Origin: a virus
IMG/VR virus record: IMGVR_UViG_3300046170_000138
Span: 1 to 28,203 of that record
Length of the DNA stretch: 28,203 nt
Strand: one strand, 5' to 3'
The translations under genes were made by a program, and so were the position numbers. Below the pieces are notes generated by a model that worked only from the letters and a program-made list of their open reading frames with translations, made no database searches and was not told where the DNA came from. Positions 1 through 28,203 of the stretch are shown here, piece by piece; the stretch's first letter is position 1; each line of letters opens with the position of its first letter.

Positions 1-561
1 ATCGTAATACTCTTTATCAAGTTCACAAGCTGTTAAATCATATCCTAAATTATGACAAGCTATTGCTATTGAGCCACTACCCAAATGTGTGTCAAGTATT
101 TTATCGCCTTCTTTAGCATAATTGATTAAAAGCCATTCATATAGCTTTACAGGTTTTTGTGTTGGGTGTATTTTACCTCCAATTTTGGGTACAGACATTC
201 TAAAAATTTTAGCCAATTTGTCAAATGAAGTCCAAGCTAATTCTGCCATAGCTAAACTAAAATCCTCACTAACCTTTTTATCCCAAACAATAAAGCACCT
301 ACTGCTTTGTAAATTGTCAAAAAAGTAATTACCGCCCCAAATAATTTGGTTTTTACTAACTCTTTTTAGTTCTTCAAAATATTCTTTTTTAGGAGGTAAA
401 ACATCCCATCCTTTATCTACCACTTCGTTAAAATTCATTTTACCACTTTTCCCACCTTTAAATTTATCCCCAATCCCATAAGGTGGGTCAACAATAGCAA
501 GGTCGAAGTAATTATCCTCATACCGTGCCATTAGTTCCATATTATCCTCACAAGTAATCAT
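1..561 (-). CDS. DNA methyltransferase, N6-adenine type, beta class (3' end cut by window edge)
   Basis: The open frame starts at ATG 561 and runs without a stop to base 1, giving 187 codons with the C-terminus outside the window. The DPPYGIG motif (motif IV, catalytic) lies near residues 25-31, and LDTHLGSGS (motif I, SAM binding) lies near residues 160-168, just after HPTQKP. This order, catalytic before SAM-binding, is that of beta-class methyltransferases, and DPPY favours N6-adenine as the target. The segment IIWGGNYF is frequent in phage enzymes of this kind. The start overlaps the stop of the upstream helicase gene as ATGA, so the two are probably translationally coupled; the next in-frame ATG is at 540. 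No restriction enzyme gene is visible beside it. It probably acts as an orphan phage methylase protecting DNA from host restriction or marking it; the recognition site cannot be read from sequence. Confidence 0.93.
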   Translation of the reverse strand, partial: MITCEDNMELMARYEDNYFDLAIVDPPYGIGDKFKGGKSGKMNFNEVVDKGWDVLPPKKEYFEELKRVSKNQIIWGGNYFFDNLQSSRCFIVWDKKVSEDFSLAMAELAWTSFDKLAKIFRMSVPKIGGKIHPTQKPVKLYEWLLINYAKEGDKILDTHLGSGSIAIACHNLGYDLTACELDKEYYD

Positions 562-1746: not shown

Positions 1747-2136
1747 TTATCCGTTAAACACGTAGTTCTCAAATGTACGTGCTAAATTAATTATTTCAGT
1801 TGTATTTATTTCTTTTCCTGCATACAAGTCAGTTGCTCTATTTAAACTGCTTTGTCTTATAATGTATTTTTGTACATCATCTTTAGGATTAGAATAGTTT
1901 CCTTTAGGAGCAGGTGCTACGCTGCTTTTCTTGCCGAGTATTTTAGCCTTGTTTTTATTTTGGTCTAAATCATACTCAACTTCATCCCCTTCATTAAACG
2001 TCAATTCTTTAGGAGAATAAACATTAGGGTTGTGTCCATTAGCGAATGTTACTGTGTATTTGTTCATAGTAACTCCGTCAGGCAGTCTAAAACTTTCGCC
2101 TTTTACTACTGTGTTTACTTTACTCGTATATTTCAT
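1747..2136 (-). CDS. SSB-like small beta protein of the replication module
   Basis: This 129-residue protein has a beta-rich N-terminal half (roughly residues 1-65, alternating hydrophobic strands ending near EGDEVEYDL), compatible with an OB-fold. A lysine- and proline-rich linker (65-85) follows, then a helical C-terminal part containing IIRQSSLNRATDLY and LARTFENYV. Phage ssDNA-binding or annealing-type proteins of Bacteroidota often combine such a small beta domain with a C-terminal RQSSLNRA-like helix. It precedes the 88-aa SSB-tip protein and the helicase, which supports a role in binding single-stranded DNA. The start overlaps the upstream 43-aa coiled-coil gene by 17 bases. The function is inferred, not established. 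Confidence 0.7.
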   Translation of the reverse strand: MKYTSKVNTVVKGESFRLPDGVTMNKYTVTFANGHNPNVYSPKELTFNEGDEVEYDLDQNKNKAKILGKKSSVAPAPKGNYSNPKDDVQKYIIRQSSLNRATDLYAGKEINTTEIINLARTFENYVFNG

Positions 2137-2251
2137 TTGTCATTATTTGTTGTGTAAGTATCTCTATTTTTGCTTCAAGTTCTTCTACTTTTTTTCGAAG
2201 TGCTTCGGCTTCTGCTTCTCGTAGCCGTAATAAATCCTCGTTATATGTCAT
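2120..2251 (-). CDS. 43-residue coiled-coil microprotein
   Basis: ATG at 2251 opens a 43-codon frame. Residues 5-36 form a charged helix with leucine, alanine and isoleucine in heptad spacing (EDLLRLREAEAEALRKK, then VEELEAKIEIL), a strong coiled-coil pattern. The frame ends at TAA 2120, 17 bases inside the next gene, so the two are likely translated in tandem. It is the first minus-strand gene leaving the divergent promoter region and would head the replication operon. The function is unknown; a small dimerising protein is the most that can be said. Confidence 0.65.
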   Translation of the reverse strand: MTYNEDLLRLREAEAEALRKKVEELEAKIEILTQQIMTNEIYE

Positions 2252-2272: not shown

Positions 2273-2297
2273 TTTTAATAAAAAACATAAATAAATT

Positions 2298-2363
2298 CTA
2301 TAAACATTTGGTTAATAAAATAAAAGCTGTATATTTGTACTATAATTAAAAACAAACATTATG
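2298..2363 (+). promoter_or_regulatory. Bacteroidota-type promoter and leader of the plus-strand cassette (copy A of a duplicated control region)
   Basis: The -33 element TTTG (2306-2309) is followed by exactly 19 bases and the -7 element TATATTTG (2329-2336), a perfect fit to the Bacteroidota primary-sigma consensus (TTTG-N19-TAnnTTTG). Transcription would start near 2342, leaving a short A-rich leader with no Shine-Dalgarno sequence. Two blocks, 2298-2315 and 2341-2363, are identical to a region on the minus strand at 22013-21948 in front of the seven-gene cassette. Confidence 0.85.
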
Positions 2364-2528
2364 AAAGCATTACAAAAAAGTACAAGGTGGTTTAGAAACG
2401 AAGCAATAGGAACAGATTATACATTTGATTTTGACATTGAAGTATATGTGTCTTTAAATGGAGATATCGAGGACTATAGTGGGTGTTCTTTTAAAGAAGC
2501 AACTAAATTAATTTCATTAAACAAATAA
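2361..2528 (+). CDS. 55-residue hypothetical protein, first gene of the plus-strand cassette
   Basis: ATG at 2361 opens 55 codons ending at TAA 2528. It lies about 20 bases from the predicted transcription start of an exact Bacteroidota promoter and behind an AAAAACAAACATT leader. The product begins with a basic helix (KALQKSTRWFRNE) and continues with acidic strands (DFDIEVYVSLNGDIEDYSG). No membrane segment, signal peptide or known motif is visible. The second gene follows after 11 bases behind the similar leader AAAAACAAACAAT. Being one of only two plus-strand genes in a minus-strand genome, with its own promoter and terminator, it resembles a phage moron or an early host-interaction gene. 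The function is unknown. Confidence 0.8.
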   Translation: MKALQKSTRWFRNEAIGTDYTFDFDIEVYVSLNGDIEDYSGCSFKEATKLISLNK

Positions 2529-2539
2529 AAACAAACAAT

Positions 2540-2809
2540 ATGAAAACAATTACAGATTATCAAAACCTTAAAGAACAGTTAGAAACTATAAAATCTAACC
2601 ACAAAGAAGAATATCTTGACGCTTCATTTATTTCAGTACGTGCAAGTGGTATGAATTGGAGAGAGGCAAAGAAGATAGGAATGGTAAAAGAGTATGGTGG
2701 TTGGTATTTTTATAGCACATCTACAAACTCAAATGGTAATGACTTGTATGAAAAAATAAAACAAGCGTGTAAAGGTTTTAGTCTTTACGTTTCTGAAAGA
2801 CAATTATAA
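2540..2809 (+). CDS. 89-residue hypothetical protein, second gene of the plus-strand cassette
   Basis: The frame starts at ATG 2540 behind an A-rich leader and stops at 2809, 23 bases before a rho-independent terminator. The N-terminus is a charged helix (residues 3-25), followed by a region rich in aromatic residues (MNWREAKKIG, EYGGWYFYSTS) and a last helix (DLYEKIKQACKG). It looks like a small globular cytoplasmic protein; I recognise no family. It shares a transcript with the 55-aa gene and nothing else, so its role is probably separate from replication and morphogenesis. An anti-defence or host-takeover role would fit the promoter-genes-terminator layout, but that is inference. Confidence 0.85.
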   Translation: MKTITDYQNLKEQLETIKSNHKEEYLDASFISVRASGMNWREAKKIGMVKEYGGWYFYSTSTNSNGNDLYEKIKQACKGFSLYVSERQL

Positions 2810-2832: not shown

Positions 2833-2861
2833 AGCCACCTCAAAAGGGTGGCTCTTTTTTT
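2833..2861. terminator. Bidirectional rho-independent terminator
   Basis: A 7-bp perfect stem AGCCACC / GGTGGCT (2833-2839 with 2847-2853) and a 7-base loop are followed by CTTTTTTT on the plus strand. On the minus strand the same stem is followed by TTTTTTGATT. It closes the plus-strand cassette and, in the other direction, leftward transcription through the NinG-like gene at 2897. Confidence 0.88.
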
Positions 2862-2896: not shown

Positions 2897-3259
2897 TTAT
2901 ACTTTAAACTTTTCAATCAACTCATTTAGGTCATCATTTGACAATTTTACTAAACCCCTAGCTTTTTGTTGTAACTTTTCTGCTGTACCTTCTCCATACT
3001 CTTTGTCTAGGTTTAAGCCAAAAATATATTGATTGCCTTGCTCAAACAAATTGCATTTAGGACATTGTACCTGTACGTTTGTTTCATCCCATCTAGTTGC
3101 ATAGTGTTTACGGCTCATAAAGTGTCCTGCGTGTAATCTACTTACATCATCTACTTTACCACAAGTGAAACATTCAGCTTTGCCATTGTTTGCAAATCTA
3201 TTGCGGATGTATAGGCTGAACACACTATCTAGCTTTTTAACTATTTTGCTTCGTGTCAT
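2897..3259 (-). CDS. NinG/Rap-like HNH endonuclease (recombination)
   Basis: The protein has CFTCGK and later QCPKCN as paired zinc-binding cysteines, with HAGHFMSRKHYATRWDETN between them. This CxxC, AGHF-S/R, RWDExN, QCxxCN layout is that of the lambda NinG (Rap) family, an HNH-type nuclease that processes Holliday-like recombination intermediates. A helical tail of about 45 residues follows. I chose ATG 3259 because it overlaps the stop of the upstream 28-aa gene as ATGA, the coupling used throughout this genome; ATG 3268 would add three residues. It is the last leftward gene before the bidirectional terminator. The function is strongly suggested by the motif set; the substrate here is inferred from the family. 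Confidence 0.85.
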   Translation of the reverse strand: MTRSKIVKKLDSVFSLYIRNRFANNGKAECFTCGKVDDVSRLHAGHFMSRKHYATRWDETNVQVQCPKCNLFEQGNQYIFGLNLDKEYGEGTAEKLQQKARGLVKLSNDDLNELIEKFKV

Positions 3260-3342
3260 ACTATCCAATCATATAAAACAACAAGTAATAATGTTACAAG
3301 AACACAGCAATATGTAATTAATAAATTATTCAATATTTTCAT
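3256..3342 (-). CDS. 28-residue membrane peptide
   Basis: ATG 3342 overlaps the stop of the 70-aa gene (ATGA) and its own stop overlaps the ATG of the NinG-like gene (again ATGA). The product is almost entirely one hydrophobic helix: KILNNLL, then ITYCCVLVTLLLVVLY, then DWIV. Exact stop-start coupling on both sides is the main reason to believe in so short a frame. It may be an inner-membrane peptide. The role is unknown. Confidence 0.5.
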   Translation of the reverse strand: MKILNNLLITYCCVLVTLLLVVLYDWIV

Positions 3343-3599: not shown

Positions 3600-3745
3600 C
3601 ACATATATAGTAACTATTATATAGTAGTTTTTATTTATAGTTATATGCTATTTATAGTAGATGTTATATAGTAGTTATATGTTATATACTTGTTAATACT
3701 ATATATCAATATTATATATAACTATATATATATATATATATAACT
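3600..3745. repeat. AT-rich intergenic repeat region between late and replication modules
   Basis: About 150 bases made almost only of A and T, with three exact copies of TATAGTAG (3620-3627, 3653-3660, 3667-3674), a near copy at 3605-3612, and an alternating TA tract flanked by TATAACTATA motifs (about 3717-3750). No gene fits. It separates the holin gene from the 70-aa gene. It could be a replication origin or DNA-unwinding region, a regulatory region, or simply low-complexity spacer. Confidence 0.7.
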
Positions 3746-3750
3746 ATATA

Positions 3751-9970: not shown

Positions 9971-10332
9971 AGTACTATATAATCGTTATCGTGTGTATCG
10001 TTTGTATCGTAAACATTCTTATTTACATTGTACCTGCTTTGTGTTACAGGTGTCTGTGCTGTACAGAACAATTTATCTCTATATACTATTGTAGTGCCAT
10101 TTAAAACTTCTAGCGTGTAATAGTGTCCTTCTCTAAATGGTGCATTGCTGCTGCCAAATGTCATAGAAGCTGTTAGAAAGTTCTCGTTGCTATCAACAAC
10201 AGTAGATGCTGTAATTGTTTCTGACTTGTTAGTTTGTTCATCAGTAACAGTATATGTAAGCGTTTGAGTAACATACTCCGCTCTTGGTATATACTTAAAT
10301 GTTTGTGTTTGCGATACTGATACAATCTTCAT
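9967..10332 (-). CDS. 121-residue virion-associated hypothetical protein
   Basis: This beta-rich soluble protein (KIVSVSQTQTFKYIPRAEYV, REGHYYTLEVLNGTTIVYRD, KLFCTAQ) ends in NDYIVL. Proteins with this YTLEVLNG and NDYIVL pattern are familiar in Bacteroidota phages next to portal genes, but I know no function. It is the first gene after a rho-independent terminator and carries the 15-base motif at its start, so it opens the unit containing portal, connector and fibres. Its stop overlaps the portal ATG as ATGA. A small tail-tube, head-decoration or connector role is possible. Confidence 0.75.
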   Translation of the reverse strand: MKIVSVSQTQTFKYIPRAEYVTQTLTYTVTDEQTNKSETITASTVVDSNENFLTASMTFGSSNAPFREGHYYTLEVLNGTTIVYRDKLFCTAQTPVTQSRYNVNKNVYDTNDTHDNDYIVL

Positions 10333-10344
10333 ATAAGTATAACG
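10330..10344 (-). promoter_or_regulatory. Recurrent start-codon motif CGTTATAnTTATATG, copy at the 121-aa gene
   Basis: Minus-strand CGTTATACTTATATG ends on the start codon of the gene at 10332. It is one of five copies in the window, all at identical distance from an ATG. Here the motif follows a terminator, so a new transcript must begin nearby, which favours a promoter over a purely translational signal. Confidence 0.6.
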
Positions 10345-10366
10345 CTAAAAAGTGAGAATTTGTAAT

Positions 10367-10393
10367 AAAAAAAGAGGGATGCTAATGCACCCC
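10367..10393 (-). terminator. Rho-independent terminator after the tail-tube gene
   Basis: On the minus strand GGGGTGC, loop ATTA, GCATCCC (one G-U pair) is followed by TCTTTTTTT. The 7-bp stem and U-tract are oriented leftward and would end transcription of the capsid/tail-tube unit before the 121-aa gene. Confidence 0.8.
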
Positions 10394-10449
10394 CCTATAA
10401 TCATAATCAAAAAAAAACTTATACTCTATGCAAATATATAAAAAATATA

Positions 10450-11985: not shown

Positions 11986-12579
11986 TTAATTGTTAATTTT
12001 AGACATTACTTTATCGAGTGTTGTTTGCTTTCTGTTTTGTGCAAACTTTACACCAATATTGTTATTTTTTTGTTCAGGGTTATGAGCAATAGGCTCGGCA
12101 GCAGGTTCAGACAATTCCTCTTTTACTTCTTTCGGTAATTCCTCTGATAACTCTGCTTCTTCAACTACTTCTTCACTCATTTCTTCTTTCTTCATATCTT
12201 CAATCATAGCTTTGATTTCTGATACTGCTTCTGCTAGTTCTTCTTTAGTAACATAGCCTAATTCTTCTTCCGCTTCTACTTCTTCTTCAGCTTCTTCTTC
12301 TAGGTCTTTAATTTCAGCAATAATGCCTTCTTCTGCTACTACTAGCATCTTACCATCTTCTAAAGTGTAATCGCCAACAGGCAATGCTACTTTGTCATCT
12401 TCGGTAATTATAAATATTTCGTTTCCTGCTTCAAACGCTTCTGCTTCTAGTACAGTACCGTTGTCTAGCTTTGCAGTTGCTAGTTCTACCTTCTCTTGGG
12501 CTTCAACATCATTAACAATGTCAGTAGTATCTTCGCCTAGATAGGTTTTAATCTTGTTTAACATTTCGGTTGCTTTCAT
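11986..12579 (-). CDS. Acidic scaffold-like head assembly protein
   Basis: In this 197-residue protein the N-terminus is helical (KATEMLNKIKTYLGEDTTDI) and is followed by a small beta domain (residues about 35-85, with DNGTVLEAEAFEAGNEIFI and LPVGDYTLEDGKMLVV). Next come a glutamate-rich coiled coil (about 90-150), a proline-glutamate stretch, and a basic C-terminal end (QNRKQTTLDKVMSKINN). Acidic helical proteins with a basic C-terminal capsid-binding end, placed just before the capsid gene, are typical phage scaffolds. The beta domain, often present in Bacteroidota phage scaffolds, is less usual elsewhere. The gene begins with the recurrent 15-base motif. Confidence 0.75.
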   Translation of the reverse strand: MKATEMLNKIKTYLGEDTTDIVNDVEAQEKVELATAKLDNGTVLEAEAFEAGNEIFIITEDDKVALPVGDYTLEDGKMLVVAEEGIIAEIKDLEEEAEEEVEAEEELGYVTKEELAEAVSEIKAMIEDMKKEEMSEEVVEEAELSEELPKEVKEELSEPAAEPIAHNPEQKNNNIGVKFAQNRKQTTLDKVMSKINN

Positions 12580-12591
12580 ATAACTATAACT
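12577..12591 (-). promoter_or_regulatory. Recurrent start-codon motif, copy at the scaffold gene
   Basis: Minus-strand AGTTATAGTTATATG ends on the start codon at 12579. The first base is A instead of C; all other fixed positions match the other four copies. It lies in a 36-base AT-rich gap after the 45-aa Cys-rich gene. Confidence 0.55.
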
Positions 12592-12884: not shown

Positions 12885-14062
12885 TACTTAATAGGTATGC
12901 AATTAGGTACTAACTTACCATCCTTCTCCTTCATACCGTACTGTCTATATCCTGCTGTACAAGGTTTTTCTAATTTGTGTTGCTCACAAGGCATAAACCA
13001 AGTCTTTCCCTCAAACTCGTGTTCGTGGTAACTCTCACATCCTATATCCTGTGCTGCTTTTATTGCTAGTTCTTTAGTTGCGTAAGCTAGTCTATCGTCT
13101 ATAATAGCCATAGTGTCGCTAACTACTTCACTTGCTAACTCTAACAATCCTAATTCTTTTAGTTTGCTTTCTGACCATCTCTTGGCAGCTTTACCACCCC
13201 ACAACAAGTAAGATATAGTACCACAGGCTTTAGTATCTCCTTCATCATAATATTCTTCTGCTCTTGATAAGTAGGAGTACATACGTTTAATAGTGTTTTC
13301 GCTAATAGGTTTGCCCTGTGCTAATTGTTGCGCTCTTATCTTACCTACGTCAGTTGCACACTTGTTGTTTATTTCTTTATTTAGGTCTATACCTCTTTGT
13401 GCGTTATTCTTTACAGCATCAGGATAATCTGAATAGCTTTCTAGTTCTTCTTTTTTGCCATCCTTATAGCGTTTGTCATCTCTTACAATTCTACGGATAT
13501 AAGATAGCATATCTTGTGCTTCTTCTTCTTCAAAGTCGTTTATAGGTTCTTTAGGTCTTTCCATCTTGTCAATAAAATACCCCTCAATAGAGAAACCTTT
13601 TACTTTGCCTGTCTTTACATAGTCATTCCAAACTTCGTCATTGTTTACTTTAACAACTCCCATCCAAGTACCCACAGGCACGTTTAAGCCATACTTCCTA
13701 GACTTGTCGTGTGTTTCATCTTCTACTAGCCAACTCTCTACTAGCGTAAGCCCATTTAGGCTGTGTTGGTGTTCTAGTGTGCTGTTGTTCTGATTACCTT
13801 TCATAAGGTACATTTCAGCAGCCTTACGGATAGTGTCTTTAGAGAAGTAAATATAATATTCATCCTCTCCTTTACGTCTGTATATAGGTTTATTGGGAAT
13901 AAGCAGCGCACCTACTAATAATTGTTTGTCTATTTGTGCAAGTTGTACTTCTTCGTTTTTTAGTGCTACAAAGTCTTCTTCAATGGCAGGGTTTTCTACA
14001 ATAGAGATAGCTTCTATACCCTCTACACTATTTTCATCTAAAATAAGTTCAACTATCCTCAT
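12884..14062 (-). CDS. XkdF-like prohead protease fused to a C-terminal domain
   Basis: In this 392-residue protein, residues 1-165 (RIVELILDENSVEGIEAISI, then VENPAIEEDF; IYFSKDTIRKAAEMYL; NSTLEHQHSLNGLTLVESW; GKVKGFSIEGYF) match XkdF-type phage prohead proteases. The His after E in the LEHQHS segment and the GFSIEG serine are likely catalytic residues. Residues about 205-300 form a second helical domain (YPDAVKNNAQRGIDLNKE, KCATDVGKIRAQQLAQGKPI, LLWGGKAAKRWSE) seen fused or adjacent to this protease in many phages. The last 70 residues hold four Cys and several His, possibly a metal site. The protease would trim scaffold and capsid during maturation. The start carries the recurrent 15-base motif. 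Confidence 0.82.
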   Translation of the reverse strand: MRIVELILDENSVEGIEAISIVENPAIEEDFVALKNEEVQLAQIDKQLLVGALLIPNKPIYRRKGEDEYYIYFSKDTIRKAAEMYLMKGNQNNSTLEHQHSLNGLTLVESWLVEDETHDKSRKYGLNVPVGTWMGVVKVNNDEVWNDYVKTGKVKGFSIEGYFIDKMERPKEPINDFEEEEAQDMLSYIRRIVRDDKRYKDGKKEELESYSDYPDAVKNNAQRGIDLNKEINNKCATDVGKIRAQQLAQGKPISENTIKRMYSYLSRAEEYYDEGDTKACGTISYLLWGGKAAKRWSESKLKELGLLELASEVVSDTMAIIDDRLAYATKELAIKAAQDIGCESYHEHEFEGKTWFMPCEQHKLEKPCTAGYRQYGMKEKDGKLVPNCIPIK

Positions 14063-14074
14063 ATAACTATAACG
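14060..14074 (-). promoter_or_regulatory. Recurrent start-codon motif, copy at the protease gene
   Basis: Minus-strand CGTTATAGTTATATG ends on the protease ATG at 14062. It lies in the 30-base gap after the tape measure gene and would separate tail and head transcription. Confidence 0.6.
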
Positions 14075-20303: not shown

Positions 20304-20782
20304 AAAAAAACAATAGAACCTAATACAACTCCTAAAGGCATATGCTTATACTCTAAAGCATCTTTAGCTTCGTATGGCTCTATGTTATATAATTTATCGT
20401 ATTTACCCTGTACGGGTCTGTAAAGGACTGCCATAGCTTTTTCTATGTTATCCCAATCCCCCAAGTATGTATCTATGTCTATGTATTCCCCAAAAGACAT
20501 ATTGTCTAGGTTAGGAATAAAGCCATAGCGTTTGCCATCTAGTTTAAACTCTCTTGTTAGTGCAGGAGTTTCATCAAACATCTTTGTGAGCGTTGCTACT
20601 ATTGTTTGTATGTCAGCAGCTTTAATGTTTCTTACAACTGTGTCAGGCACGTTGCAAAATATAGTAACCATCTTTAAGGCTACTTGATTGTCAGTTAGGC
20701 TTTCAGGTAGCTTTAGATACTGTTGGTATTGTCCTAGTGTTATCTCGTTAAGACTTGTAGGTACGTTTAATTCATACTTCAT
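20138..20782 (-). CDS. Tail assembly chaperone, non-shifted form (gpG-like)
   Basis: ATG 20782 lies behind the recurrent 15-base motif and a terminator; a longer frame upstream to 20878 crosses that terminator and is rejected. The product has 214 residues: MKYELNVPTSLNEITLGQYQ, QYLKLPESLTDNQVALKMVT, and a central helical part (LGDWDNIEKAMAVLYRPVQG, ...). A hydrophobic segment (HMPLGVVLGSIVFFYNLGSE) contains the slippery run. The STLNEITLGQYQ-like opening and MPLGVVLGSIVFFY segment are those I associate with Bacteroidota phage tail chaperones. The gene's place before the tape measure, and the overlapping frame, support the gpG role: binding the tape measure during tail assembly. Confidence 0.72.
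   Translation of the reverse strand: MKYELNVPTSLNEITLGQYQQYLKLPESLTDNQVALKMVTIFCNVPDTVVRNIKAADIQTIVATLTKMFDETPALTREFKLDGKRYGFIPNLDNMSFGEYIDIDTYLGDWDNIEKAMAVLYRPVQGKYDKLYNIEPYEAKDALEYKHMPLGVVLGSIVFFYNLGSELCQVMMDYSLKEGMTYQQKQTLEQSGVGINQYTDWLKETLRDLKISLN
20302..20310 (-). other. Slippery T9 run, candidate programmed -1 frameshift site
   Basis: On the minus strand the sequence G-TTTTTTTTT-A puts T TTT TTT in the zero frame of the chaperone gene (after codon 158, Val). Slippage by one base back keeps perfect pairing and continues as TTA CAA TTT into the open -1 frame. The run is unusual in length and lies exactly where the two frames overlap. Confidence 0.65.
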
Positions 20783-20794
20783 ATAAATATAACG
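20780..20794 (-). promoter_or_regulatory. Recurrent start-codon motif, copy at the tail chaperone gene
   Basis: Minus-strand CGTTATATTTATATG ends on the ATG at 20782. The copy lies directly after a terminator, so transcription has to restart here, as at the 10332 copy. Confidence 0.6.
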
Positions 20795-21410: not shown

Positions 21411-21523
21411 AACCCCATCCATTTATCAGCGTGAGCGCATAGTTGGCAAAACGTGCATACTAATCCAAAAGCAGCTACGTATATTATTGTGTCAAATATA
21501 AAGTTTTCTATCTTACGTTTCAT
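21407..21523 (-). CDS. 38-residue membrane peptide of the cassette (gene 3 of 7)
   Basis: ATG 21523 overlaps the end of the 71-aa gene by 11 bases. The product has a basic N-terminus (MKRKIENFIFD), one hydrophobic helix (TIIYVAAFGLVCTFCQLCA) and a short polar end. Three cysteines lie at the end of the helix. A single-pass inner-membrane peptide is likely; superinfection exclusion or membrane targeting are possible roles, unproven. Confidence 0.6.
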   Translation of the reverse strand: MKRKIENFIFDTIIYVAAFGLVCTFCQLCAHADKWMGL

Positions 21524-21728
21524 AAAAGTCAAGTATAAAGTCCCCTAAAGAAACCCTTTCCTCATAGGTCATCCCTTTTAAGTCTTGTATTTCTGTTTCT
21601 ATGCATTCTTGCTTATATAAAAGTTTATTATAATCAAGCGTCATTTCTTTGCCATCTCTTTCAAGGTCTATAAGTTTCCAAAAAATTCTTTTTTCCTCTT
21701 TTTGTAAATCTTCTAGTTCTGTTATCAT
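21513..21728 (-). CDS. 71-residue coiled-coil cassette protein (gene 2 of 7)
   Basis: ATG 21728 lies behind an AAAACAAACATT leader that directly follows a GC-rich hairpin. The product is acidic and helical: MITELEDLQKEEKRIFWKLI, DLERDGKEMTLDYNKLLYKQ, ECIETEIQDLKGM, ending in a short segment VSLGDFILDFYET. A coiled-coil dimer is likely. The function is unknown. Confidence 0.65.
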   Translation of the reverse strand: MITELEDLQKEEKRIFWKLIDLERDGKEMTLDYNKLLYKQECIETEIQDLKGMTYEERVSLGDFILDFYET

Positions 21729-21742
21729 AATGTTTGTTTTAA

Positions 21743-21760
21743 AGGGGGATTGCTCCCCCT
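21743..21760 (-). promoter_or_regulatory. GC-rich hairpin with GCAA loop between two identical leaders
   Basis: Minus-strand AGGGGGA, loop GCAA, TCCCCCT is a perfect 7-bp stem with a GNRA-type loop in otherwise AT-rich DNA. AAAACAAACA precedes it and AAAACAAACATT follows it. The following U-run is only UUU, so it is a weak terminator at best. It could be an attenuator, an mRNA-stability element, or a site of RNA processing between genes 1 and 2. Confidence 0.6.
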
Positions 21761-21767
21761 GTTTGTT

Positions 21768-21950
21768 TTATATTTTTGTTATTTCAGGTAAACCATAAGT
21801 GTTAGTAGTTATTTTTATTCCTTCAGGTAATTGGTTTTCTTCCCATCTTTCTCTAAATAAAGCAGTTTCGTCAAGTATTTGTCTTCCTGTTAATCCTTTA
21901 TCTTGTAAGCTTTGTATAAATTTTAATGTGTCTTTGCCTTGCTGTGTCAT
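21768..21950 (-). CDS. 60-residue cassette protein (gene 1 of 7)
   Basis: This gene is first behind the duplicated control region, with the same leader and ATG context as the plus-strand cassette. The product MTQQGKDTLKFIQSLQDKGL, TGRQILDETALFRERWEENQ, LPEGIKITT... is helical with a short C-terminal strand. LTGRQILDETALFRERW resembles a small helix-turn-helix-like helical pair, so DNA binding is possible but only a suggestion. The stop is 8 bases before the hairpin element. Confidence 0.65.
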   Translation of the reverse strand: MTQQGKDTLKFIQSLQDKGLTGRQILDETALFRERWEENQLPEGIKITTNTYGLPEITKI

Positions 21951-22036
21951 AATGTTTGTTTTTAATTATAGTGCTAATATATAAACTATATTTTAATTAA
22001 CCAAATGTTTATAAAACTTTTTTAATAAAATAAGCT
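21948..22036 (-). promoter_or_regulatory. Promoter and leader of the seven-gene cassette (copy B of the duplicated control region)
   Basis: This is the minus-strand counterpart of the region at 2271-2363. TATAAACATTTGGTTAAT (22013-21996, with -33 TTTG) and the 23 bases ending in the start codon (21970-21948) are identical, and the 31-base distance between -33 TTTG and the leader core is the same. The -7 site is degraded (TATATTAG, or ATATATTA at the exact spacing), so this copy should be weaker or differently regulated. Confidence 0.75.
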
Positions 22037-23197: not shown

Positions 23198-23534
23198 TCA
23201 CTTCTACCTTAAAACTCTTTTGTTTTGTGTCGTGCTTTATCTCACGCTTTGTACCATTCAACCTGTGCGCTTCATCATCATCACTAATAAGCTTCATCAG
23301 TCCTATCTGTAATGTAGCGTTATCACTTTCGTACCACTTCTTACGCATATTCACTTTCATATCAGAACGGTTTTTTTGCAGTAGGCTTTTTATATCGTCT
23401 ACTTCGTCTAATTTATGTGTGTAGAAAGTTTGCTTGGAGTAGGGTACATATGCCATTATATCCCCTATGAATAAAAGGTTATTTTCTTTGATGGCATCAA
23501 TAGCCTGTTGTTTTATTTCTTCTGTATTATACAT
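23175..23534 (-). CDS. terS: Terminase small subunit
   Basis: This 119-residue helical protein has an N-terminal helix-turn-helix-like region (residues about 20-48, NLLFIGDIMAYVPYSKQTFY, THKLDEVDDIK), then a coiled helical part (LLQKNRSDMKVNMRKKWYES, ATLQIGLMKLISDDDE) and a basic C-terminal tail that may contact TerL. The position directly before terL with a 23-base overlap is the usual one. It recognises the pac or cos site and loads TerL. The start carries the recurrent 15-base motif, making it the head of the packaging unit. Confidence 0.82.
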   Translation of the reverse strand: MYNTEEIKQQAIDAIKENNLLFIGDIMAYVPYSKQTFYTHKLDEVDDIKSLLQKNRSDMKVNMRKKWYESDNATLQIGLMKLISDDDEAHRLNGTKREIKHDTKQKSFKVEVIDHNTGK

Positions 23535-23546
23535 ATAAGTATAACG
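23532..23546 (-). promoter_or_regulatory. Recurrent start-codon motif, copy at the small terminase gene
   Basis: Minus-strand CGTTATACTTATATG ends on the ATG at 23534 and is identical to the copy at 10330-10344. It lies in a 28-base gap after the PP-loop gene and opens the late region. Confidence 0.6.
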
Positions 23547-23562: not shown

Positions 23563-24411
23563 TTATAAACCACAATATCCGCTATCACATTCATTAAAGT
23601 CATCATCAAATAATTCTGCTTGTGCGTTCCACTTCATAATGTCTTTATATGATAAGTTCTTGTCTTTATACCATACGTCTTTGTTATGTTTAATTCTTTC
23701 TTGCTCTGCAAACCACTGTATTTTATTCGGGTGCTTATCCCACATCTTGCGTATCAATAGTGGATTTTTATGAAAACATCCTACACAGTTATTCATCCAA
23801 GCAAATCGAACGGGTTTATCTTTCCAATACTTCTCTATATGGTCTTTATATATATTATCTTCTATTAAAGGGAATACAGGTTTTTGCCATTCAATTATAC
23901 CCCACTTGTTTCTTGTCTTTCTTTTACCAACAATAGCTTTCATTTCTAAAAAACCATTATCATTTGTTTTCTCTGTTGTTCTCTTTGCTCTACGTTTTTC
24001 GTTTGCTCGAAAACCTAACCTAAATTCACAGGGTATATTTAACTCACTCCTCCACCATTCAAACATAGGTTGCATTTTCATTTGTGTAGTGCAGTATCTT
24101 CTTAATGGGTCAGGTAGTGTACCTGCTGTGCTTATAACATCATCAAAGGTCTTTCCTGTTACCCAACTAATCTTTCTACCTATATACTGCTCAAGGTCAA
24201 GCATAGTATGTATGATAGTGTCATCTTCTAACGTGCCTATGAATGGTGCTTGTATTCTATCTTCTACTTCCTGTCTTAATTTCTTGTCAGGAAACATACA
24301 GTTCTTGTCATCAGTTCTTACCAAAGCAAACACATCATAGTCAGCAGGATAGTTAGCTGCTATGTAACTTGATGTTTTACCACCTGATAAACTATTAACT
24401 GTTTTTAGCAT
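23563..24411 (-). CDS. PP-loop ATPase of the PAPS reductase/DndC-like superfamily
   Basis: In this 282-residue protein, LSGGKTSSY at 8-16 is the PP-loop that binds ATP in adenine nucleotide alpha hydrolase enzymes. RRYCTTQMK (104-112) matches the RxCT segment of PAPS reductase-like proteins. Further cysteines occur at NNCVGC (Cys209, Cys212) and near the end (Cys275, Cys280). With Cys107, these could hold an iron-sulphur cluster, as in DndC or APS reductase, or act as thiol carriers. Cellular sulphate reduction, DNA or RNA thiolation and nucleotide modification are all known uses of this fold; the sequence does not decide among them. The start overlaps the DnaA-like gene by 7 bases. Such genes are common in phages but not well understood. 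Confidence 0.8.
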   Translation of the reverse strand: MLKTVNSLSGGKTSSYIAANYPADYDVFALVRTDDKNCMFPDKKLRQEVEDRIQAPFIGTLEDDTIIHTMLDLEQYIGRKISWVTGKTFDDVISTAGTLPDPLRRYCTTQMKMQPMFEWWRSELNIPCEFRLGFRANEKRRAKRTTEKTNDNGFLEMKAIVGKRKTRNKWGIIEWQKPVFPLIEDNIYKDHIEKYWKDKPVRFAWMNNCVGCFHKNPLLIRKMWDKHPNKIQWFAEQERIKHNKDVWYKDKNLSYKDIMKWNAQAELFDDDFNECDSGYCGL

Positions 24412-24908: not shown

Positions 24909-25008
24909 CTGTATAATAGTTTATTAGTTTCTCGTTTGTGTTTTCGTATGCTCTTTGTAGTTCGCCTTTAAAGTAAGCATAACTTTTTATTAGTGTAGTC
25001 TTACGCAT
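24832..25008 (-). CDS. 58-residue helical microprotein overlapping the DnaA-like gene
   Basis: ATG 25008 overlaps the HNH gene's end by 8 bases. The 58-residue product (MRKTTLIKSYAYFKGELQRA, YENTNEKLINYYTDEIQKLL, TKYHTKKQGE...) is basic and helical. The first 35 codons fill the only gap between two genes, and the frame then overlaps the DnaA-like gene by 77 bases. Translation is plausible; the function is unknown. Confidence 0.5.
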   Translation of the reverse strand: MRKTTLIKSYAYFKGELQRAYENTNEKLINYYTDEIQKLLTKYHTKKQGEHTTPKNFD

Positions 25009-25495
25009 CTTTAAATACTTTGCGTTTGTTTATTAATTGCCATATCACTGTTGGATACATATGATATTTTCTACCTAATTCATTATAATTTTTTATTACT
25101 TTGTATTCTTCTCTTAATTTTAACACAAACTCTTTCGGATATTTTATAGACGCTTTATTACCTTTTGATGTATCTCTTTTACGTTTTTCTTTAGGTATGT
25201 CCATTATATTATCTCTCTGTGTGCCTATGGCTATGTTATTCCAAGAATTGTCTAAACCGTTTCCGTTTAAGTGTCTGACTACAATACCATCTTGAAATAA
25301 TTTATCTCCATATTTTTGATATGCTTGTAATCTATGCGTTTGAATATAAAGTTTTTTATTATTATTATTTAAAATTGTTGTTCTTTCATACCCTTGATTA
25401 TTTATCGAACCAATCCTTGTGCGTCTTAAACCAATTAAACATCCGTTTTTAGTAACTCTGTATCCTTTCTCGTATGCTATTTGTTCTCTATTCAT
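25001..25495 (-). CDS. HNH homing-type endonuclease
   Basis: In this 164-residue protein, residues 54-96 contain THRLQAYQKYGD, VVRHLNGNGLDNSWNNIAIG and TQRDNI, the HNH_3 fold with His75 and Asn residues 83 and 87 in the metal region. The C-terminus (NELGRKYHMYPTVIWQLINK, RKV) is a helix-turn-helix for site recognition. This architecture is that of free-standing phage HNH homing endonucleases. It sits between two small coupled genes and is AT-rich and asparagine-rich, so it may have inserted into an existing operon. Confidence 0.88.
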   Translation of the reverse strand: MNREQIAYEKGYRVTKNGCLIGLRRTRIGSINNQGYERTTILNNNNKKLYIQTHRLQAYQKYGDKLFQDGIVVRHLNGNGLDNSWNNIAIGTQRDNIMDIPKEKRKRDTSKGNKASIKYPKEFVLKLREEYKVIKNYNELGRKYHMYPTVIWQLINKRKVFKDA

Positions 25496-25619
25496 AATTC
25501 AATGCGTCTAATATAATCATTTCTTCTTTAACCTCTTGTAGCATTTCTAAAGCATCTTCATAGTCTCCTAGCTTGATGGCTAGTTGTATGGTTTCCATAT
25601 CGCTTATAAATCGTTTCAT
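25488..25619 (-). CDS. 43-residue helical microprotein
   Basis: ATG 25619 overlaps the stop of the RecE-like gene as ATGA, and its stop lies 8 bases inside the HNH gene. The product MKRFISDMETIQLAIKLGDY, EDALEMLQEVKEEMIILDAL is a pair of amphipathic helices with an acidic end. It may be a small dimeric helical protein. The function is unknown. Confidence 0.62.
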   Translation of the reverse strand: MKRFISDMETIQLAIKLGDYEDALEMLQEVKEEMIILDALNYE

Positions 25620-26386
25620 AGTGTACCCCTTAATGTGTAGCTGTCTAGGTCTGCATCTTCTATAAAAAACATCTTGTATCTGTCTATTGCCTCAAGGGTC
25701 TTACGTTCCCCTTCTAAATAGAAGTCCTCTGATACGTCGTATATCGCTATGTCTAGTGTGCCTTTGTCTAAAGCTATAAATGTAAACTCTGTATAAGGTA
25801 TGTTAAATAGTTGGCAGTATATGTACACCTGTATATCATAACCATATTTTTTAGCTGAATAAGGGAAGGCTCGTATGTCGGTTGTTGTTTTTAAATCTAC
25901 TATTCCTGTCTTTCCTAATACATCTGCCTTGCCTCTAAATGGCATCATATCAATAGTGCCAATAGCAGGTACTTCTGTTTGGCAATCAGTAATAAGTTGT
26001 AAGGCTTGTTCGTTCTTAAAGAAAGCATCTATTAGTCTTTCGTTTTCGCTTCTCTCTTTTGCTGTAAAACATTCGCCATACTCCTCTACTGCTTCCTTAA
26101 ACTTTTTAGCGTTTCTGCTTTGTACGTCTATAAATTTTATCTCGCTGTATTTTTCAGGCTCTAGTATAGCTGTGTGGAATAAATGCCCTGCACGTAAAGC
26201 AGGAGATGTTTCATTCTTGCTGTACTTTGTAATGTAATGATATTTCTTTGGGCTTGTCTGTAACAATTTAATACTGCTACTACTTAATGCGTGTTTACCT
26301 AAATGACCATAGTAAAAGCTATCATCATCCATTTTAGATAGCAACTCTTGTCTATCCCACTTCTCTCCGTTTAGTAATGTAATCAT
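25616..26386 (-). CDS. PD-(D/E)XK exonuclease, RecE-like/DUF3799 type
   Basis: In this 256-residue protein, LSSSSIKLLQTSPKKYHY near 34-51 and RAGHLFHTAILEPEKY near 65-80 (His71) open the family pattern. The catalytic region has TEVPAIGTID (Glu138), FRGKADVL (Asp155), GIVDLKTTT (Asp164, Lys166) and YDIQVYIYC (Gln186, Tyr190). This is the PDDEXK_1-like order of RecE exonuclease VIII and DUF3799 phage proteins. It would degrade one DNA strand from ends to prepare single strands for annealing or repair. No RecT-like annealase is seen in this window; the SSB-like proteins lie far away. Confidence 0.85.
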   Translation of the reverse strand: MITLLNGEKWDRQELLSKMDDDSFYYGHLGKHALSSSSIKLLQTSPKKYHYITKYSKNETSPALRAGHLFHTAILEPEKYSEIKFIDVQSRNAKKFKEAVEEYGECFTAKERSENERLIDAFFKNEQALQLITDCQTEVPAIGTIDMMPFRGKADVLGKTGIVDLKTTTDIRAFPYSAKKYGYDIQVYIYCQLFNIPYTEFTFIALDKGTLDIAIYDVSEDFYLEGERKTLEAIDRYKMFFIEDADLDSYTLRGTL

Positions 26387-27536: not shown

Positions 27537-27662
27537 TTATAGTTCTATGTCATTCCACTTATTTCTACGGTCATCGCACCCACAGTCAGGATATATCTTT
27601 TTGTAAACATATCTAATGCCTGTGTACTTGGTTATGTAATATACTAAATCTCCTAATCTCAT
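27537..27662 (-). CDS. 41-residue microprotein with CGCDDRRNKWN motif
   Basis: ATG 27662 overlaps the sigma-factor stop as ATGA. The product MRLGDLVYYITKYTGIRYVY, KKIYPDCGCDDRRNKWNDIE, L has a helix followed by C-G-C-D-x-R-x-x-x-N, a motif recurring in small proteins of Bacteroidota phages (GxGD...TGI...CGCxxRxxxLN). The two cysteines and the Asp may bind metal. The function is unknown. Confidence 0.7.
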   Translation of the reverse strand: MRLGDLVYYITKYTGIRYVYKKIYPDCGCDDRRNKWNDIEL

Positions 27663-28156
27663 AGCTTATCTTTTATCTTGCGTTTAACTTTCTGATAGGT
27701 ATTGTAAAGGCTTCTATACTCTATGTTGGTTTCCCTAGATAGTGCAGATATATTGTTAGTGTCCTGTACAAGTTCAAATACCTTTTTGTCGTACCAATGC
27801 ATCTCGTTTAGTGCTTCATTGACCTTATCAAAGGCTTCTTCAAATATCTTTTCATCTTCTAACTCTACCTTTGTCTTTTCTTCTATTAGGTATTTTATGT
27901 AATCGTCTGTTAGGTCTACAACTTGTGTACGCTGCTCCTTACGACATAAATCTAAAAACATACTACGAAGCACCTTATAAATGTAAAAGTCGTTTATATC
28001 GTCTTTATATGATATATCTATTCCGTTCTGTATAAGCACTAATAGTTTTAAATACATCTCTTGTACCAAGTCCTCGCTAGTGTCAGGGTTGCACCCCCAA
28101 CTACGGCAGTAGCTTATCCATTTATTGTGTTTGCTTGTTAGTATGTCGGTTATCAA
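27659..28156 (-). CDS. Phage-encoded sigma-70-like factor
   Basis: In this 165-residue protein, residues 5-75 resemble sigma region 2 (CNPDTSEDLVQEMYLKLLVL, FYIYKVLRSMFLDLCRKEQR), with the DLVQEMYLKLL core of region 2.1-2.2. Residues about 118-162 form a region 4 helix-turn-helix (YDKKVFELVQDTNNISALSR, ETNIEYRSLYNTYQKVKRKI). An acidic linker separates them, as in ECF-type factors. The frame opens with TTG at 28156, because a stop lies in frame 30 bases upstream and there is no ATG in between. It could direct host RNA polymerase to phage promoters such as the 15-base motif. The rare start codon may keep its level low. Confidence 0.75.
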   Translation of the reverse strand: MITDILTSKHNKWISYCRSWGCNPDTSEDLVQEMYLKLLVLIQNGIDISYKDDINDFYIYKVLRSMFLDLCRKEQRTQVVDLTDDYIKYLIEEKTKVELEDEKIFEEAFDKVNEALNEMHWYDKKVFELVQDTNNISALSRETNIEYRSLYNTYQKVKRKIKDKL

Positions 28157-28203
28157 AATAGTCGTGTTTGGTTTTTGTGTTGTTCAATTCGTTTTATTGC
28201 TGC

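Follow-up and report, generated by a model that had tools for sequence, protein, structure and literature searches.

Why would a phage keep two small genes on the strand opposite to everything else, and what are they for? The window (the whole stretch of viral DNA that was analysed, all 28,203 bases of IMG/VR record IMGVR_UViG_3300046170_000138) has 51 of its 53 called genes on the minus strand according to a simple gene caller, and the only two on the plus strand, P1 and P2, form a unit that runs convergently with a NinG-like gene. The phage is tailed and apparently virulent, and its host is inferred to be a member of the Bacteroidetes from the type of promoter and leader and from the nearest terminases, the listed matches of which come from 19 Phocaeicola phages and one OM05-12 phage (at 35 to 36% identity, too distant to name a host).

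A sequence-only reading of this DNA had described the pair as a self-contained, moron-like unit of two ORFan genes, set against the direction of all else between an exact host-type promoter and a strong bidirectional terminator. Both ORFs are confirmed at 2361 to 2809, as are their orientation and, from the evidence given below, the promoter, the terminator and the moron-like character of the whole (its own signals, lower G+C, presence and absence among close relatives, and changes of slot); the ORFan label is wrong. Relatives of P2 occur in 25 IMG/VR phage records, in a single copy in each (the same 25 came back when the viral scan was repeated with a broader alignment), and relatives of P1 in four. 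Identity to the window copy is 47 to 96% for P2, over the 20 relatives aligned, and 84 to 89% for P1. Silent codon changes outnumber replacements in nine of ten P2 pairs and equal or outnumber them in four of six P1 pairs, which is good evidence for a real gene in the case of P2 and modest evidence in that of P1; because both are conserved in relatives and show this silent-change bias, we take both to be real genes. Beyond these records, searches with P2 of Pfam, PHROGs, PADLOC, PDB sequences, and annotated phages gave no match of weight (none at E 0.1 by tblastn against the annotated phages), and P1 has no convincing match in Pfam or PHROGs, the two collections searched for it (best PHROG E 0.068).

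Table 1. Features of the window and positions of P2 among related phage records
Feature	Positions	Strand	Remarks
43-aa ORF	2120-2251	-	overlaps g4 start
Slot A promoter/leader module	2288-2364	+	77 bases, 86% identical to second copy
Sigma-A type promoter, TTTG-N19-TATATTTG	2307-2337	+	exact match; TTTG 2307-2310, TATATTTG 2330-2337
Leader repeat AAACAAACATTATG	2350-2363	+	extends through P1 start codon
P1	2361-2528	+	55 aa
Second leader repeat AAACAAACAATATG	2529-2542	+	extends through P2 start codon
P2	2540-2809	+	89 aa; roaming accessory gene; fold predicted as ferredoxin-like (pLDDT 88.5)
Candidate bidirectional terminator hairpin	2833-2853		between convergent P2 and NinG; U-runs on both strands
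NinG-like gene	2897-3268		convergent with P1-P2
AT-rich stretch	3600-3750		between g7 and holin
Slot D	10333-10449	-	between g10450 and g9967; no gene in window; terminator 10396-10373, promoter-like TATATTTG 10438-10431
CGTTATA-N3-ATATG	10330-10344, 14060-14074, 20780-20794, 23532-23546	-	also 12577-12591, one mismatch
g21513	21513-21728	-	71 aa; second gene of slot E in window, first in G001
Leader repeat AAACAAACATTATG before g21513	21726-21739	-
Hairpin behind g21768	21743-21760	-	GGGGGAGCAATCCCCC; same hairpin behind P2 in G007
g21768	21768-21950	-	60 aa; first gene of slot E in window
Slot E promoter/leader module, second copy	21947-22024	-	inverted, behind terminase gene
PAPS-reductase-like gene	23563-24411	-	phrog_424
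HNH protein gene	25001-25495
RecE/exonuclease VIII-like gene	25616-26386	-	phrog_412, E 7.8e-33; possible recombination source
Sigma-factor-like gene	27659-28156	-
P2 position g4/NinG (slot A)			antisense; window, G001, G002, G003
P2 position NinG>DnaB			sense; G020, G021
P2 position holin>NinG			G025, G026
P2 position g26923>Exo (exonuclease)			G005, G006, G017
P2 position g10450>g9967 (slot D)			G004, G008, G010, G012, G023, G029
P2 position TerL>g20055 (behind terminase, slot E)			G007, G018, G019, G022, G028
P2 position g20055>g19595			G009; downstream gene judged by eye

The promoter before P1 is of the type described for the primary sigma factor of the Bacteroidetes, whose −33/−7 elements are given as TTTG and TANNTTTG (PMC6847099, PMC9723704). 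In its loose form (TTTG-N17-23-TANNTTTG) this signal is no rarer than chance in the window, with three occurrences versus 2.14 expected; the exact N19/TATATTTG form occurs once versus 0.04 expected (8 of 200 shuffles contain it), and an identical promoter is kept upstream of P2 in G001, G002, and G003, the three relatives with the same slot. A scan for E. coli-type promoters over the first 14 kb gave 47 sites versus 49.4 expected and no plus-strand site at the unit. At the other end, the hairpin between P2 and NinG has folding z scores of −4.3 (plus strand) and −5.0 (minus strand), and because these are accompanied by U-runs on both sides, it can be expected to end the P2 and NinG transcripts alike.

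A different signal, CGTTATA-N3-ATATG, is found at four minus-strand genes located within or next to the structural and packaging block, where it overlaps the start codon of each: g9967 (next to the portal gene), g12884 (head-protease-like), g20055, and g23175 (next to the terminase gene). At up to two mismatches it occurs 12 times in the window versus 4.3 expected; with a looser spacer, it gives 22 matches in a set of 27 records (free of the near-duplicates G020, G025, and G029, and used for all counts of families, core genes, leaders, and start motifs), 20 of them at those four genes and the other two at a 159-aa ORF. The triplet AAA lies 17 to 15 bases upstream of the motif in 17 of 18 distinct but related sequences from the window and its relatives. 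The motif looks like a bipartite, near-leaderless promoter, and we infer that it is a late one, read perhaps by a sigma factor of the phage's own. Sigma-like proteins are reported in phages 7-11 and phiEco32 (PMC8948821). P1 and P2 are without the CGTTATA motif. Given this absence and their host-type promoter, early transcription by the host polymerase is plausible, and we regard it as likely that the host RNA polymerase would read P1 and P2 from the sigma-A promoter on phage entry.

P2 does not keep to one position. Judged by flanking core genes, and counting the window, P2 occupies seven positions (Table 1), to which 23 of 26 records could be assigned (G011, G024, and G027 are not placeable, and G012, G028, and G029 are cut on one side by a contig end). 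G004, whose capsid-type protein shares 94% identity with that of the window, has P2 in slot D; the window and G003 have no gene there. P1 is absent from slot A in G001, G002, and G003, and in G013 and G016 it is found behind the terminase gene; no relative with a wholly empty slot A was seen. In G008, G010, and G011, P2 comes after another small gene. When placements with no neighbour in common are counted for the 61 ORF families that have members in at least 3 of the 27 records, P2 comes first with five, followed by four small unnamed families with three, fourteen families (including P1) with two, and forty-two with one. P2 is, as such, the most mobile family of the 61 and not the sole mobile one: 19 of the 61 have two or more unlinked placements. 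Three unlinked placements are found in 4 of the 28 noncore families and two in a further 8, versus two in 6 of the 33 core families; some of the place changes outside P2 perhaps stem from the differing layouts of divergent records. On the P2 tree (built without G028, and with no slot label on G011, G024, and G027), the slot label changes nine times over 22 labelled rows; only 4 of the 17 inner branches are starred, and one of these, with 99/96 support, joins slot D copies (G010 and G029) with slot E copies (G018 and G019). From these comparisons, the unit is very probably a cassette, with P2 roaming between positions.

In several pairs, P2 has been exchanged recently between lineages, because at fourfold-degenerate sites its copies agree far more often than the core genes do: agreement between the window and G007 is 18 of 21 sites in P2 versus 245 of 610 in 15 common core genes, between the window and G006 it is 17 of 24 versus 344 of 798, and between G010 and G018 it is 19 of 25 versus 154 of 370 (core pairs with fewer than 60 aligned residues were skipped). 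There is no such excess in the distant pairs formed by the window with G021 (3 of 15 versus 37 of 97) and with G026 (3 of 8 versus 163 of 384), so that those separations are old and P2 is also under strong purifying selection, which accounts for part of its high protein identity. The similarity between G003 and G007 begins about 35 bases before the P2 start, spans the −7 box, and extends as far as the stop codon, and that between G010 and G018 continues for about 30 bases beyond the P2 stop, toward a like hairpin.

The layout described by the sequence-only reading stands, but that account overlooked, together with the roaming of P2, the duplication of the promoter (Table 1). At slot E, a near-constant promoter is followed by four different first genes: g21768 in the window, g21513 in G001, a 79-aa ORF in G003, and P1 in G013 (the terminase of which is 92% identical to that of the window). 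All four join the promoter block at AAACAAAnATTATG. P1 in the window is bracketed by copies of the leader, and in G001 to G003, which lack P1, the promoter and leader are followed directly by P2. The repeat motif AAACAAACAWTATG has four copies in the window and none in 200 shuffles; with one mismatch allowed, the leader precedes 17 ORFs in the 27 records, comprising 4 of 22 P2 copies, 2 of 5 P1 copies, 10 other ORFs, and just 1 of 332 core genes. Since translation in Flavobacterium benefits from adenines that precede the start (PMC6847099), the leader repeat may be kept for translation; its sequence would also offer homology for swapping. We give roughly even chances to the proposal that recombination between the repeated promoter/leader blocks moves the cassettes, perhaps with the help of the phage's own RecE-like exonuclease. 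A broader idea, that the slots form an enzyme-free gene-cassette platform with a shared promoter and a shared leader of 14 bases that extends through the start codon, at which small ORFs are swapped between slots and phages by recombination, we consider doubtful; were it true, any incoming ORF would land in frame behind a host-read promoter.

Morons are described as a promoter, one or more small genes, and a terminator, inserted between genes that are adjacent in relatives and differing from them in base composition (PMC4378225). The P1-P2 unit has, by sequence, its own promoter and terminator, and its genes occupy places that are otherwise without them in relatives (slot D with and without P2, slot A with and without P1). 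Its G+C content, 28.6% for P1 and 30.7% for P2, lies modestly below that of NinG (34.9%), DnaB (37.3%), and the window (35.1%). By the usual criteria, then, the unit is a moron. Two of its traits are less usual, namely, the occurrence of a single gene at seven positions and a fixed promoter with a changing gene at a start-codon repeat. Neither trait was found described in the open-licence literature searched, which is weak evidence.

Lambdoid morons, as presented in the same source, share the promoter, small gene(s), terminator, and composition difference, but here the phage looks virulent, one gene occupies seven positions, and the slot E promoter is constant while its genes change. The plasticity regions of Pseudomonas Mu-like phages are alike in holding small accessory ORFs, some of them anti-CRISPR-related, at limited slots in otherwise collinear phages (PMC4378225); those phages are temperate and Mu-like, whereas here one family occurs in many slots, one of which is on the opposite strand. 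The SAS/ESAS elements of cluster K mycobacteriophages likewise place a short repeat a few bases from the starts of many nonstructural genes (PMC3203893). SAS, as characterized there, has a Shine-Dalgarno core (AGGAG) in an GGGNNNNNNNCCC frame; the repeat here is AAACAAACAWTATG, an A-rich sequence without that core or frame, which runs through the start codon and marks the junction where genes differ.

Part of this evidence could be accommodated if P2 were an ordinary conserved phage gene, of replication or of the virion, whose place differs merely by genome rearrangement. Its conservation is strong (47 of 89 residues are invariant over the 11 rows of alignment A1), it is found across divergent relatives, and the six core families noted above also switch neighbours; however, P2 moves the most of all 61 families while most structural genes around it hold their order, in several pairs its silent sites are younger than the core's, and it is missing from 4 of 29 records (G013 to G016, which were picked by P1 and may be fragments). 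We judge this explanation improbable. We hold it very unlikely that P2 is, or is linked to, a self-mobile element inserting at intergenic sites, such as the partner of a homing nuclease or the cargo of a transposon. Such an element would account for one gene at many sites and for recent spread among divergent phages, an HNH protein is encoded in the window, and NinG, of a junction-endonuclease family, flanks P2 at three of the seven positions, but not at the other four. P2 itself has no nuclease, transposase, or recombinase match of weight (a weak likeness to PADLOC REase_II, with a best E of 0.0016 and 4 of 21 members, is taken as chance), its predicted fold has no clear resemblance to any nuclease or recombinase, and P1 matches none of these enzyme classes in Pfam or PHROGs. 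Nor do the surroundings of P2 point to such an element: the flanks of 14 copies, inspected by eye, are without common ends or terminal repeats, and among 10 cassette-neighbour proteins (nine from relatives plus g21513 of the window), none scores above the curated Pfam cut-off and none matches a nuclease.

The sequence-only reading had also entertained lysogenic conversion. On this explanation, a prophage would express the moron, and the host would benefit from it. The layout is that of a classic moron, and morons are sometimes conversion genes (PMC4378225), but this part of the reading fares poorly. No integrase, excisionase, or repressor appears among the 40 of 42 named window genes that were scanned (g21768, g26778, and small unnamed ORFs fall outside the PHROGs scan, and with a window that may be incomplete a lysogeny gene could have escaped notice). 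Two pattern-based scans of genome_contigs, which covers 84,980 prokaryote species with one genome each, checked 93 and 289 stretches without finding P2. Lysogenic conversion is, on these grounds, quite unlikely.

The account that we prefer, and consider moderately probable as a whole, is that of a moron-type accessory cassette that roams, is read early by the host, and serves in takeover or counter-defence. In it, P2 would act inside the cell on a host target. Counter-defence or host takeover is the role we would favour, and we propose it tentatively, as a guess from the behaviour of the gene: such a role fits P2 because it is a small protein that phages exchange and that has no fixed place in their gene order. 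Searches of Pfam, PHROGs, and PADLOC, none of them a dedicated anti-CRISPR library, gave no match of P2 to a known counter-defence family or an anti-CRISPR. Some phages keep counter-defence proteins in accessory slots under host-read promoters, and the leader/promoter junction could serve as a model for the reshuffling of accessory genes in phages without a seen integrase.

P2 also merits attention as a small, well-predicted, widely exchanged, and uncharacterised protein. Its AlphaFold2 model (pLDDT 88.5, pTM 0.80) has the order alpha-beta-alpha-beta-beta-alpha-beta, with the elements after the first helix at E29-35, H40-45, E49-51, E54-62, H66-76, and E82-88, and P2 is, as such, predicted to be ferredoxin-like by element order (beta-alpha-beta-beta-alpha-beta) with an extra N-terminal helix. 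Against the PDB, the model has no Foldseek match at an E of ≤0.001, and the best VIA Z, 4.3 over 60 residues, would reflect a common arrangement only, with no clear solved relative. It does match one unnamed viral model in BFVD, A0A1B1IQJ4 (E 1.5e-9, 38% identity, TM 0.87). W40, K44, and a TNSNG stretch are invariant in all 21 rows of alignment A2 (which omits G005, G012, G021, G028, and G029 as near-duplicates or cut copies), and our guess is that they form a binding surface. P1 folds poorly, and its model is unreliable (pLDDT 54).

Several other features of the window were recorded. The 43-aa ORF that overlaps the start of g4 is divergent from the P1-P2 promoter and is conserved in G001 to G003. 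The AT-rich stretch between g7 and the holin gene carries ATATATA/ACTATATA repeats and is a possible origin or regulatory region. The close relatives G001 and G003 have no PAPS-reductase-like gene between g23175 and g24405, and G005, G006, and G009 do carry the gene. The sigma-factor-like protein matches Pfam Sigma70_r2 at an E of 9e-5 (just below the cut-off) and phrog_1740 at 3e-6, and G003 has two such genes. At the window's ends, a methyltransferase gene (1-561, minus strand) runs off to the left, and the sigma-factor-like gene starts 47 bases from the right end (28157-28203 lie beyond it). In G001, the latter gene adjoins DnaB; the record may represent a nearly complete, circularly permuted genome.
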